A stretch of DNA of 64,000 nt, taken from positions 1 through 64,000 of the forward strand of contig NZ_RCNR01000012.1 in the NCBI RefSeq assembly GCF_009725985.1. The letters are read 5' to 3'. The translations under genes were made by a program, and so were the position numbers. Source of the DNA: Zobellia amurskyensis (GTDB lineage Bacteria; Bacteroidota; Bacteroidia; Flavobacteriales; Flavobacteriaceae). Below the pieces are notes generated by a model. That model made no database searches, had not been told where the DNA came from, and saw only the letters and a list, made by a program, of their open reading frames with translations. Positions 45,413 through 49,855 of the stretch are shown in pieces; the first letter of the stretch is position 1; every line of letters begins with the position of its first letter.

Positions 45413-45908
45413 CATAACTTGAAAGTTTAACTTTTATTTTAGATACTATTACTATTATTTATAGTGACAGCCCTACTATTTTATGGGGATGATAAAAAAG
45501 AGATTATTTTTTTACGGATTCCCCAACTGTGTCCTACATCTATAAATTCTGACGTTTGGTCGAAAAACACTACAAAAAGTGCAATTGTAAAACGGACACT
45601 TGCTATATCTCAAGTTAATTAGTGATATTTAAAGTTCTGTAGGAAAGTGACGTTTGGGTTTGAGCGAAAATGATGCTATGGGTTGTCTCACAAGTTCTCT
45701 ATTAGCTTTTGACTATTTTTTTGTGATTACACTTTTCCGTAAGATTATAAGATACAAAACAGAGATATTTGTAGCATACTGTTTAACCAACCTTATGTTC
45801 ACAAAAACAGGAATGGGCATATAATGCCATAAAGACTAATGAACTTTATAAAAGTAAATTATTTAACCCTAAAAGGATGGGTATATGGAATTTGCCTTAT
45901 ATCCATTA

Positions 45909-45918
45909 GTTAGCAATA
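45909..45918 (+). repeat. left boundary repeat of the DUF6119-like gene
   Basis: GTTAGCAATA, 20 bases before the ATG at 45939. Its exact reverse complement occurs at 47713-47722, 1 base after that gene's stop codon. Confidence 0.75.
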
Positions 45919-45938
45919 ATTATGAAAACAAACCGTAG

Positions 45939-47711
45939 ATGACACAAAATCCTAGAATATATAGGATTGATAAATCACATAGACTTCTAAAAAAGTTGCT
46001 GACTTGTGAACTAATTATTGAAAAAATAATAAACACATCTTTTTCTAAATTAGGCATTAAAGGAACCTTCAATTCAGCTACTTTAAAGCGTATAAGCAAA
46101 GAAGAAATCACATACTTTCTTTATGTCTATGATTCGGATGAGACAGTTTCGGATTGGAAAGAATTTCTTCCACCAGAATTGACTAAAAATGAAGGCTTTT
46201 TACAGCAAAAATTATCTCTTGTTTTATTCGCAGAAACTGAATTTGATATATTTTGTATAATAGGTGGTAATGCATTTCAAATAATCCTTCCATTTATAGA
46301 TAAGTCGTTTGGTTTAAACACTTATTCTAGAATTATACAACCTGAATTCGATGAGATTGCTTCGATAAAATCAAGGGGAATAACTGGTTCTAGGGCTGGT
46401 TTAAGTGAGCAATTTAGAGATAATTATAAAATTATTGATTACATAAAGTTTGGGAAAGTAACTCAAGAAATACATTTAAAGTTAAGCCAAGAAACTAGTG
46501 ATTTACATTTTAGTTTTCTAAAAAGTAAAGACAATGACCGAATTCAAATTTATGTCAGTAAGGCTTTTAAGATTAAAAAAAATGTAGAGTTTAACGAATT
46601 ACATCAAGTAATAAAAGAACTAGTTATAATATCTGAACTTGCACCATCGGACTATTTAGATTCTTACAAAGAAATCACAGATAGAAATTTAACGGAGAAT
46701 ATTCTTCATCAAGAATTGATTACACATTTGTTTAATGACACAGAGAACCTAGGAAGAAGAATTTCAAATGCCCATAAATCATTTCAACACGATTTTTGTA
46801 ACCCAAATAACATTGAAAAATTTTATGAAGCCGACGAGTTCAGACTTAAAGAAAAAACGGAGAATAATGGTTACACAGTTTTCAAAACAGTCTATGACAG
46901 AAATGAAATTTATGATGCAGTTCTGACAAGAGCAGTTGAGCGTTTTGGAGTGAACGACCGTTTCAATTTTATGAATTTCGTTAGGAGTGTATATATAACT
47001 TGTTATCAAGACGGTAAGCATTCAATTGGTTCAGGATTCTTATTTCATATATCAACAGAATTTCCATATGACGGAAAACCAATTTTTTTAGTCGATACAA
47101 AATGGTATCGACTTCAAGATTCCTTCGTAGAAGATTTAAAAACAAATACAACTCACGTCTTAAAGACATATAAAGCTTCAAAAAATATATTATCTGAACC
47201 TTGGGATAAAAATTTAATACGCAGAGAAGGAGATTATAATTTATTATATGATTCCAAACCAAATTATATCGTCATTGATACCATAATTGCAGATGGACTT
47301 GAACTATGTGACATATTGTATTATGATAATAACAATATATATTTAATTCATGTAAAATATGGTTTTCAATCAAAAATTCGTGAATTAACAAATCAAATTA
47401 CAATTTCAGCAAGACGGTTGAGAGAAACTTTGGGAACAAAAAAGAAACCATTACTTGAAAAAATATACAATAGTTTGGTTGCGAAGAAACATAACATTGA
47501 CAACTTAACTTTGGATGAATTTAAGTCACTCTTTGAAAAGAGAATCACTTTTGTTTTAGCTTTCAGTTCTCATTTGACCTCTGACTTAATTGTTGAAAAC
47601 AACATCGAAAAATATACCTCTAACATTGCACGATATTCACTAATTCAATGTTCAAGTGAAATGAGAGCTTATTATTATGACTTACTGAATTATCAGATAC
47701 CGAGAAAATAA
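45939..47711 (+). CDS. DUF6119/TIGR04141-like protein, candidate defence nuclease
   Basis: A 590-residue soluble protein that resembles the sporadically distributed DUF6119 (TIGR04141) family. The N-terminal half holds IQPEFDEIASIKSRGITGSR and AGLSEQFRDNYKIID, a conserved-looking segment near residues 130-165. The C-terminal part has a PD-(D/E)XK-like pattern: Asp458 in LELCDILYYD and His471-x-Lys473 in YLIHVKYG, followed by the helix IRELTNQITISARRLRE. That points to a restriction-like nuclease fold. Family members have patchy distribution, as defence genes do; the antiviral role is inferred. The gene is AT-rich and flanked by a perfect 10-bp inverted repeat, unlike its neighbours. Confidence 0.72.
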   Translation: MTQNPRIYRIDKSHRLLKKLLTCELIIEKIINTSFSKLGIKGTFNSATLKRISKEEITYFLYVYDSDETVSDWKEFLPPELTKNEGFLQQKLSLVLFAETEFDIFCIIGGNAFQIILPFIDKSFGLNTYSRIIQPEFDEIASIKSRGITGSRAGLSEQFRDNYKIIDYIKFGKVTQEIHLKLSQETSDLHFSFLKSKDNDRIQIYVSKAFKIKKNVEFNELHQVIKELVIISELAPSDYLDSYKEITDRNLTENILHQELITHLFNDTENLGRRISNAHKSFQHDFCNPNNIEKFYEADEFRLKEKTENNGYTVFKTVYDRNEIYDAVLTRAVERFGVNDRFNFMNFVRSVYITCYQDGKHSIGSGFLFHISTEFPYDGKPIFLVDTKWYRLQDSFVEDLKTNTTHVLKTYKASKNILSEPWDKNLIRREGDYNLLYDSKPNYIVIDTIIADGLELCDILYYDNNNIYLIHVKYGFQSKIRELTNQITISARRLRETLGTKKKPLLEKIYNSLVAKKHNIDNLTLDEFKSLFEKRITFVLAFSSHLTSDLIVENNIEKYTSNIARYSLIQCSSEMRAYYYDLLNYQIPRK

Positions 47712-47712
47712 C

Positions 47713-47913
47713 TATTGCTAACAAAGTATAAAAATAGGGCAAAAAGTGCTTAATCGAAAGGTCTGTGTGTATTTGCAAAGTCGCCAAATTTTTAAATTTG
47801 GTATATTTAAAACAAAAAAAATAAATAACAAAATTTAAAAATTCGGCTATAGCTTAATCCGAAAAGTATCGCTAACAACCGCCCTACTTTTCTTATACTA
47901 GACCGTTGTAATA
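47713..47913 (+). repeat. structured attC-like intergenic element
   Basis: The element starts with TATTGCTAAC one base after the DUF6119-like stop and ends with CCGTTGTAATA 16 bases before the next gene. Its ends are imperfect inverted repeats: AGTATAA and TAGGGC (47725-47740) against GCCCTA and TTATACT (47881-47899). Inside are an 8-bp perfect hairpin (CCAAATTT 47784-47791 with AAATTTGG 47794-47801) and TTCGG/CCGAA (47842-47863). A second GCTAACAA lies at 47871-47878. Confidence 0.65.
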
Positions 47914-47929
47914 ATATCACCTATCTCAT

Positions 47930-48460
47930 ATGAAAAAAATTTATTACAGAGAAAATGAATCTGAATACAAAGAAGGGGTTTTTATTTCATTTTCTGAAAT
48001 CATAGGTATTCTTATACTATTCGGAATTTTGATGTATTATTATTTACACGCTGTTGAATTAGCTGACTGGACTAAAATCGTTTTAATTACAGTAGTAGGG
48101 TTTTCGCTGTTATATCTTTTTCAAATACAAGGAAAAAAGAAATTGAATCTTGACAAAAATGGCTATGGAGGAATTATGGCAGGAGAATATATCCATAATT
48201 TGATAAAGAAGAAAAAAGGAAAATCTATTAAAGGAAATGGAAACTGGGTTTCTACTGTTGGAGATTATGAATTTAATTCTTTAATTATTCGAAATAAAAG
48301 ACTTTTAGCTTTTTATGAGGACTGTTTAGAAGAACTCAAAGAGCTAACCAAAAACGGATATGAAGAAATTAATATAATGAAAGCTGATAATTTACATCGT
48401 GAACTGAATTTTAAAATTGATGTTCTGAAAAAAATTGCGGAATTAAAAATTGAAAGATAA
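47930..48460 (+). CDS. hypothetical two-helix membrane protein
   Basis: Not recognised. The 176-residue protein has a short charged N-terminus, two transmembrane helices (ISFSEIIGILILFGILMYYY about 20-39 and IVLITVVGFSLLYLFQIQ about 53-70) and a cytoplasmic, Lys-rich C-terminal domain (about 75-176) ending in a helix (LHRELNFKIDVLKKIAELKI). AT-rich like its neighbours. It is bounded upstream by the structured element and downstream by TATTGCCAAC 5 bases after its stop. A membrane effector or accessory protein in a defence or toxin setting is possible but unsupported. Confidence 0.62.
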   Translation: MKKIYYRENESEYKEGVFISFSEIIGILILFGILMYYYLHAVELADWTKIVLITVVGFSLLYLFQIQGKKKLNLDKNGYGGIMAGEYIHNLIKKKKGKSIKGNGNWVSTVGDYEFNSLIIRNKRLLAFYEDCLEELKELTKNGYEEINIMKADNLHRELNFKIDVLKKIAELKIER

Positions 48461-48465
48461 AATAC

Positions 48466-48475
48466 TATTGCCAAC
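48466..48475 (+). repeat. boundary repeat after the two-helix membrane gene
   Basis: TATTGCCAAC differs by one base from TATTGCTAAC at 47713 and again follows a stop codon directly. The remaining spacer to 48750 has small hairpins (TTGTGC/GCACAA, AAAGC/GCTTT) and no gene. Confidence 0.55.
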
Positions 48476-48750
48476 ACTGGTAACCGATGCAGAACTGTAT
48501 TTTACAATTGAACCCTATAATTTTCATCATCTTTTAGAAAAACCAACACTGTAAATCAGATAATTACAAATTTACGCAATGCTAAAAATGTATAGTTTGA
48601 TGAAATTACAGCTTGTGCCTTAAGCACAATGGGTATAAGTAATGCACAATTTGGGAAAATTCGAAAGTCCATACATTTAATCCGCTAAAGCTCCGCTTTG
48701 ACTTTTTACTTAAAACGAAATCATAACATATAAATAAAAGAACAGATTGA

Positions 48751-49650
48751 ATGGAACAAATTTTAGTTGAGTCTAGTAAAACATATAAACAAGGTTTTTT
48801 ATTAAAAGAGCAAGATATTAGGAGAATTATTAGTTTAAGTAAAGACCAATTTTCTAAAATTTCATCCGAAAAAGTTGAATATAAATTTACACTTCAATAT
48901 TTCAATGGAGCTGTTGCTAATACTGATAACATTGAATCAGTTTTAAAACAAGAAAATGAAGGTTCCTCTAGTATTGTAAGATTAGATATTCAAGCAAATC
49001 AGAAAACTGACGGAGAAGATGCTTTTATCGGGATTTATTTCAGAGACATCGAAAATGATGATGAATCTGGATTCAAACCTGTAAAGCATATAATCAAAGG
49101 ACAATCTCGTGATTGGGTATTCGTAACTAGTTCATTAATTGAAGAAAGGATTGTTAAGATTAAAAAAAGAGGCTTTAAATTTAGTTCAATATTTGGCAAA
49201 TTCTTCAGCCCCATTTTTATGTTAATATTTATGGGAGCATTGTTTTCTTCAACACCAAATGTCGCAGAGAATAGGACATCAAAACAGTTAGAGTTAATAA
49301 AAAATATTGAAAAAAAGTGGAAGGCTAACGAAATTACTGACCCTATAGAAGTTATAATTCAAATTGAGAAAAACAAAAATTCTGAAAGTGTTACTGTGAC
49401 AAATATTTTTAGTGAATTATTCCTAAGTAAAAATTTTCTACTAATTATTGGGATAACTATTTTGATAATATTTTTCTTGTATTTTTATACTAAATTCAGC
49501 CCACGATTCAATTTTTATTGGGGAGGTTACATTGAGAAGTACGATAAAAAAGAAAGTACTAGAAAATTGGTTCTCGGATTATTTTTTGGAACAATCATAT
49601 TAGGTGTAATCATAAACTTACTATCCAGTTTTATTTGGGAGAAAATATAA
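48751..49650 (+). CDS. hypothetical membrane protein with N-terminal soluble domain
   Basis: Not recognised. The 299-residue protein begins with a soluble alpha/beta domain of about 140 residues (LLKEQDIRRIISLSKDQFSK, IGIYFRDIENDDESGFKPV). Transmembrane helices follow near 150-168 (FFSPIFMLIFMGALFSS), 228-246 (FLLIIGITILIIFFLYFY) and 275-293 (LVLGLFFGTIILGVIINLL). The loop between the first two is charged. The layout resembles a sensor or effector domain tethered to the membrane, but no family can be named. It ends the gene series in the AT-rich island; TAACAAAG follows 10 bases after its stop. Confidence 0.6.
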   Translation: MEQILVESSKTYKQGFLLKEQDIRRIISLSKDQFSKISSEKVEYKFTLQYFNGAVANTDNIESVLKQENEGSSSIVRLDIQANQKTDGEDAFIGIYFRDIENDDESGFKPVKHIIKGQSRDWVFVTSSLIEERIVKIKKRGFKFSSIFGKFFSPIFMLIFMGALFSSTPNVAENRTSKQLELIKNIEKKWKANEITDPIEVIIQIEKNKNSESVTVTNIFSELFLSKNFLLIIGITILIIFFLYFYTKFSPRFNFYWGGYIEKYDKKESTRKLVLGLFFGTIILGVIINLLSSFIWEKI

Positions 49651-49855
49651 AAACTACAGTTAACAAAGAACTGAGGTAATAAACAAACAAATTCTTCCTT
49701 AATCTGAGACAATACTATTCTACAGCCATAGATTCTAAAATCAGTTTCTTTGAGAGTTTTTAATTCGATTCATCTTCTATTTATCTAGACAATACAGAAA
49801 CGTAGGTTTCTCTCGCTAACACAAGCGTCACGCTCGTGCCACCTTGCTTCACTAA

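Follow-up and report, generated by a model that had tools for sequence, protein, structure and literature searches.

A probable integron-type cassette array lacking a recombinase of its own in Zobellia amurskyensis and its relation to recombinase-headed arrays in Bacteroidota

Known integrons and the cassette arrays described here

Integrons are catalogued by IntI and attC models, and the canonical R' core has the consensus GTTRRRY. In the portion of the IntegronFinder 2.0 paper available to us, a cluster of attC sites lacking an integrase is termed a CALIN, and only integrase-only elements are given as known earlier from Bacteroidetes, to which one complete integron (Salinibacter ruber) was added (PMC9024848). 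Bacteroidota is named among the integron-bearing phyla, with no detail in the accessible text, in two other papers (PMC8618304 and PMC9668308). A subgroup of simple tyrosine recombinases has been called "integron-like"; conservation of the insert is incomplete in this subgroup, and the insert-less enzymes are not tied to cassette arrays in the part of the paper at hand (PMC8138268). Another study, as far as its available text goes, took only integrases with the additional domain (PMC2426708), and recombinases of the kind described below would therefore have been left out. The titles and abstract starts of the open full-text literature (most subscription papers and every preprint lay outside its reach) yielded no such cassette arrays from Flavobacteria or Bacteroidota.

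We analyzed a stretch of 64,000 nucleotides from Zobellia amurskyensis (contig NZ_RCNR01000012.1, positions 1 to 64,000, forward strand), which is referred to here as the window. It contains a locus that very probably represents a cassette array of the integron type with no recombinase of its own; the hairpin of a cassette circle would be inserted at GTT by a recombinase of the type found beside arrays in related genomes. The arrays resemble integrons in that one-gene cassettes stand in tandem in the same direction, in that the sites have the order R''-L''-L'-R' with a paired L stem and fold better on the bottom strand (here predicted), and in that the array start adjoins a tyrosine recombinase. 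They differ in that this recombinase lacks the IntI-specific insert, scores below the IntI cutoff, carries an extra N-terminal domain, and is mostly encoded in the same direction as the array. The tag is approximately 14 bp long and cassette specific, and the R' box fits GTTRRRY in 6 of 136 cases (approximately 8.5 expected by chance), only GTT being fixed. The window locus is similar to a CALIN because its cassette sites lie in a genome without an array recombinase, whereas that term rests on canonical attC models and the present sites were found by half-site models. The model NF040815 (XerA; "site-specific tyrosine recombinase/integron integrase") was the top NCBIfam model for five of six array recombinases, but its cutoff was passed by only one of the six. 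Judging from sequence, the system appears to work like an integron and yet to fail two canonical tests, namely, the IntI-specific domain and the GTTRRRY consensus.

The probable DUF6119 cassette and the limits of the mobile unit

A first-pass annotation of the window had described a perfect 10-bp inverted repeat tightly bracketing a DUF6119-like gene, and both the repeat and the assignment were confirmed. The sequences GTTAGCAATA (45909-45918) and TATTGCTAAC (47713-47722) are exact reverse complements around the cassette 1 gene (45939-47711, plus strand), which encodes 590 aa matching PF19614 (E = 5.3e-24) and TIGR04141 (E = 1e-16). The pairing extends to 15 positions with a single mismatch at position 11 (45909-45923 versus 47708-47722), and the second arm overlaps the stop codon. 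The bare repeat is only mildly unusual: repeats of at least 10 bp occurred in 10 of 3,000 dinucleotide-preserving shuffles of both 60-nt flanks, and among the 51 ORFs in the window that reach 150 aa, 2 have longer exact repeats in their flanks. The ORFs found in the window at 2385 and 14937 (minus strand) are flanked, within 60 nt, by inverted repeats that are likewise exact and measure 13 and 11 bp. The repeat became convincing only once it was compared with other loci.

No match to the cassette 1 protein was obtained in a PADLOC search or in plasmid records, and its modest structure model (pLDDT, 73.5) had no PDB match at an E value of ≤0.001. Its invariant E..D...H.K residues may point to a PD-(D/E)XK nuclease. 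DUF6119 genes were present in 5 of 100 genomes of the window's family. Among these five, the tag pair is perfect in the window copy and near-perfect in that of L217, and the L214 copy has a cassette site at its 3' end, while neither a tag pair nor a 3' cassette site was seen at the other two (L215 and L218).

The limits of the unit were assessed by comparison with a Dokdonia MAG (L151), which encodes a copy with 95% protein identity over 590 aa. DNA likeness (86%) between the two is confined to 45909-47724, plus a short spacer-like stretch of 110 columns. Identity is 27% over the 60 nt preceding 45909 and 98% over the first 60 nt of the unit, so that the left junction, which the first-pass annotation had proposed to look for within the 10 bases, coincides exactly with base 1 of GTTAGCAATA. 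A spacer of the kind described below precedes the Dokdonia copy, whereas none precedes the window copy. On the right, the Dokdonia sequence diverges just past R'', within 3 nt of the second repeat, and has no spacer; the right edge is therefore not directly visible for the DUF6119 cassette. The array recombinase profile, in its catalytic part, matches a 255-aa ORF (215 bits) that lies near the Dokdonia cassette on the opposite strand (L151:3969-4733, minus). In an Aestuariibaculum relative, likeness is limited to about the first 169 residues (81% at the DNA level), and the start tag is altered. Dokdonia and Aestuariibaculum provide the only named records in which a relative of the gene was found, and they make Flavobacteriaceae the most likely identity of the window's family.

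Right edges were observed in other cassettes. In the genome G014, 7 of 11 pairs of duplicated cassettes end 2 to 3 nt into the next GTT, and the other 4 run further (7 of 79 cassettes, being without flanks, were left out of this test). Among cross-genome homologous stretches, for which the two boxes of L151 were added by hand, 22 of 48 end 2 to 4 nt into the next GTT and the other 26 do not; all 22 represent one 3' module at nine loci. This module, which extends over approximately 335 nt up to the next GTT and combines some 150 nt ahead of R'' with a long spacer, occurs in L073, L076, L091, L103, L106, L110, L113, L114, and L115. The suggestion that the inverted repeat delimits a unit of insertion is therefore supported in part: it holds for the left edge, because the junction lies exactly at 45909, but the unit does not extend from repeat to repeat, since duplicated cassettes elsewhere include the following spacer up to the next GTT. 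A unit consisting of a gene and its own site, bounded at GTT, was found on the left for the DUF6119 cassette itself and on the right for other cassettes only. We predict, with the right end taken from these other cassettes, that the cassette 1 unit runs from the GTT at 45909 to the GTT at 47905.

No empty site was found in the window's genus. The downstream amidohydrolase gene was present in seven of nine genus genomes searched (own genome included). In L101 and L102, only this gene and its neighbor align, in a different order; these genomes give no empty site because the neighboring genes are arranged differently.

Gene-spanning tags and predicted folding of the sites

To compare cassette ends, we applied half-site models for left ends (..AAC) and right ends (GTT..) to 57 loci. 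Of 261 left and 207 right half-sites, 4 and 3, respectively, lay off AAC or GTT and were dropped, and the window's own four boxes were supplied manually wherever a model had missed one. Tags were scored as identical when the six variable bases after GTT equaled the reverse complement of those before AAC. Start and end tags were identical across the same gene in 136 of 161 cassettes, as opposed to 6 of 181 comparisons between the two ends of one spacer and 4 of 119 between a cassette and its neighbor; at most 12 of 161 were identical in 5,000 shuffles. A first, smaller set had given 92 of 102 versus 3 of 127. Position 11 was mismatched in 135 of the 136 perfect pairs, with A in R' opposite C in 124. 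Given that tags are equal across the gene and rarely across the spacer, the matching ends bracket the gene and not the spacer. For an integron cassette, tags that bracket the gene are predicted, since only in the circular form is the site closed. The two 10-mers are best read as belonging to R' and R'', two boxes of a single recombination site that is split between the cassette ends, and not as transposon ends.

In cassette 1 (all features on the plus strand), the R' box, or start tag, corresponds to 45909-45923, as indicated by the homology edge with L151 and the tag rule, and the R'' box, or end tag, corresponds to 47708-47722. Directly 3' of the second 10-mer lies a conserved noncoding element of approximately 180 nt, which ends at the GTT at 47905. 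This spacer (47723-47904) belongs to the longer of two length classes (118 to 123 and 176 to 188 nt), an assignment that draws on its recurrence in family genomes and on the predicted fold of the closed site. Putative L'' and L' arms were placed at 47726-47740 and 47881-47898 by their match to the L-stem columns of the covariation alignment described below. The right half-site model places the R' box of cassette 2 at 47905-47917, and the cassette 1 unit is predicted to end at the GTT of this box.

The spacer element was detected by blastn in 67 of 100 genomes of the window's family at an E value of ≤0.001 and in 46 at ≤1e-8, and additional, weaker copies occur on contig 8 of the window's own genome. 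Phage records contained no match to the spacer, plasmids contained one partial match (38% of the query, Flammeovirga plasmid), and an Rfam scan of the window gave no match. RNAalifold analysis of the top strand of 69 short-class sites (4 near-duplicates among 73 were excluded) recovered nine L-stem pairs, seven of which show pair-keeping changes on both sides. Complementary R''/R' and L''/L' boxes are accordingly present in the cassette sites, as seen in the tags, the L-stem covariation, and the folds.

We then closed the sites in silico, joining R'', the spacer, and the cassette's own R'. The bottom strand was predicted to be the more stable in 115 of 119 sites (mean, -29.6 kcal/mol, versus -25.1 kcal/mol for the top strand). 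When the R' of the next cassette was substituted, the predicted bottom-strand mean was -23.2 kcal/mol, the own tag being better in 109 of 119. Stem mismatches on the top strand comprised 483 A.C, which correspond to G.T on the bottom strand, and 60 G.T (ratio, 8.05); the ratio expected from base composition was 2.0, and shuffled arms had a mean of 3.2 and a maximum of 4.0. Predicted folding thus favors the bottom strand as the recombining strand.

Other explanations of the repeats would have to accommodate these patterns. In a transposon-like unit, the two 10-mers would be terminal inverted repeats, the element would move as exactly 45909-47722, and the spacer would be host DNA. The left edge at 45909 agrees with this, as does the end of the Dokdonia homology within 3 nt of the second repeat, but the following spacer travels with duplicated cassettes (7 of 11 pairs; 22 of 48 stretches), and no transposase gene lies inside 45909-47722, where the only sense-strand ORF of at least 80 aa is that of DUF6119; we therefore consider such a unit improbable. 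It is likewise unlikely that genes were shuffled by homologous recombination between conserved spacers rather than by a site-specific process. The spacers are indeed long, alike, and repeated, yet the window copy has an exact left edge though no spacer precedes it, the tags are specific to the gene and not to the spacer, and the arrays begin beside a recombinase.

We give very little credence to the view that the elements are terminators or REP/MITE-like intergenic repeats with no role in gene movement, which would suit foldable intergenic repeats downstream of genes but leaves both the tag identity across the gene and the left edge unexplained. Finally, the inverted repeat is almost certainly not a chance match. 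The shuffling result (10 bp reached in 10 of 3,000) and the longer repeats at other window ORFs are compatible with chance, but the tag rule is obeyed at the expected places, including the mismatch at position 11, and the homology edge falls on the repeat.

The array recombinase, its distribution, and the probable stranded array in the window

A tyrosine recombinase of one profile was located beside an array in 18 fetched loci. Its length is 355 to 409 aa in 17 of these (the L073 ORF is 265 aa as called). The first start tag, which shares at least 9 of 10 bases with the first end tag, lies 37 to 155 nt from the recombinase gene in 17 of 18 arrays and approximately 3.6 kb away in L081. The gene is codirectional with the array (tag behind the gene) in 15 of 17 arrays and divergent in 2. 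In many arrays, the first start tag comes after TATATAAC(A/G)A or TATATAAACAA. All six array recombinases scanned contain Phage_int_SAM_4 and Phage_integrase domains. The IntI model TIGR02249 aligns to array recombinases in two stretches, skipping approximately positions 180 to 239 (the IntI-specific region), and none of the 100 genomes of the window's family exceeded its cutoff. Among proteins of solved structure, archaeal XerA-type proteins and IntI4 come closest, in sequence as well as in fold. In a tree with 27 array recombinases picked from those listed, these enzymes and canonical IntI were split from nine Xer proteins with a support of 100/100, at a point where, as the program warns, long branches meet; monophyly of the array recombinases with respect to IntI had a support of 42/76.

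Residues 1 to approximately 80 of the array recombinase form a conserved N-terminal domain (predicted beta-beta-alpha-beta-beta-alpha), which is carried by L075, L078, L079, L081 to L085, L087 to L091, and others. Ten fragments of this domain had no Pfam match over the cutoff. A resemblance to the HARP domain was considered and dropped, there being no such Pfam match in the 10 fragments. The domain might read the folded site.

The recombinase was present at an E value of ≤1e-70 in 72 of 100 genomes of the window's family. It was found in 42 of the 46 genomes with the repeat at ≤1e-8 (Fisher P, ~1e-4), and 30 of the 100 genomes had the recombinase without a repeat match at that threshold; one of them, G032, nevertheless carries a chain of four cassettes. 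In a phylum sample of 296 genomes, the recombinase was detected at ≤1e-75 in 91 genomes, 51 of which belong to other classes, while canonical IntI exceeded its cutoff in 84, none in the window's family. At 20 further recombinase loci, a paired start tag was located 33 to 130 nt behind the gene in 13 (7 of them outside the window's family) and at 368 nt in 1, compared with 46 of 3,000 random windows on the other strand. Of the six loci without a paired start tag, three are on contigs that end within 240 nt. The contigs of L184, L187, and L202 stop 104 to 235 nt past the recombinase gene, as though arrays break draft assemblies.

A model-free chain test linked up to 18 cassettes in 20 kb (L075). 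It yielded chains of three to seven cassettes in 8 of the 20 newly fetched loci and of two or fewer in 12; chains of two to three are no evidence because the reversed-sequence control reached three. Cassette ORFs follow the array direction in 118 of 122 cases. The cargo, assessed with Pfam and PADLOC for 116 of 118 cassette proteins, is diverse: no Pfam family had more than three members among the 25 of 90 families listed, which include Eco57I-type restriction methylases, reverse transcriptases, short-chain dehydrogenases, and TPR proteins.

In the window itself, the cassettes yield no chain in this test. The gene of cassette 2 (47930-48460, plus strand) encodes 176 aa of no known family, with nothing in Pfam, NCBIfam, or PADLOC at the limits used. 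Its R'' box (48461-48475) is imperfect relative to its own R', the tags GTTGTAATAATATC and GTTGGCAATAGTAT failing the identity test, and no recognizable spacer follows. By eye only, a 299-aa ORF (48751-49650, plus strand) may be a relic third cassette: a degraded site-like stretch precedes it and an R''-like box (49651-49664) follows, for which no matching R' box was seen. Variant left ends in the window's genus have the R'' box inside a mini-hairpin (GTGC...GCAC), as at L072:7327-7463, L072:14299-14436, and near positions 114 and 2934 of L059; a degraded one is apparently present ahead of the 48751 ORF, at approximately 48620-48660 of the window. The junction upstream of the first cassette (45875-45908, plus strand), which has no homology to the sequence preceding the Dokdonia copy, might be an attI relic. 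Apart from the R' box itself, it shows no match to the right half-site model, and by an 11-base attI matrix built from 16 of 18 sites it scored no better than 9% of upstream 11-mers, which is not significant.

The array recombinase is missing from the window's genome (120 contigs, rated 99.96% complete), where the best match is a 301-aa Xer-type protein (E = 3.4e-54), and no recombinase relic was found in the window or in L072. This genome is one of 4 among the 100 family genomes that have the repeat without the enzyme. Since the enzyme is absent, we regard the window locus as a small stranded array with one clean cassette, one cassette with an imperfect start tag, and perhaps a relic. It would have arrived by cassette insertion or inside a larger array, and would since have lost the enzyme and partly decayed.

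In the integron-type mechanism that we prefer, a cassette would be excised as a circle, so that R'' and its own R' would then flank the spacer. R'', spacer, and R' would together form a single long hairpin, for which the bottom strand is best suited, and this presumably single-stranded substrate would be recognized by an active tyrosine recombinase of the kind heading arrays in relatives. The circle would be inserted at an attI-like site beside the recombinase gene, with the cut probably falling exactly at GTT and the strands exchanged there, and each insertion would push the next cassette onward.

More tentatively, and with a likelihood that we place a little short of even, the arrays may constitute a second integron lineage across Bacteroidota, whose recombinase is without the IntI-specific domain and carries an N-terminal domain of its own, and which uses a self-pairing barcode of approximately 14 bp, an insertion ratchet, and strand choice via mismatches. 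If this is true, a free circle would offer a far better site than does that cassette within an array (predicted means, -29.6 versus -23.2 kcal/mol), and insertion would therefore be favored over excision, a ratchet building long arrays. Strand choice would be encoded in mismatches of a one-sided kind: the top strand would have A.C where the bottom strand has a G.T wobble. If the system is active, a large route by which Bacteroidota capture genes has been overlooked, and the need for the IntI-specific domain in recombining folded sites would become testable.
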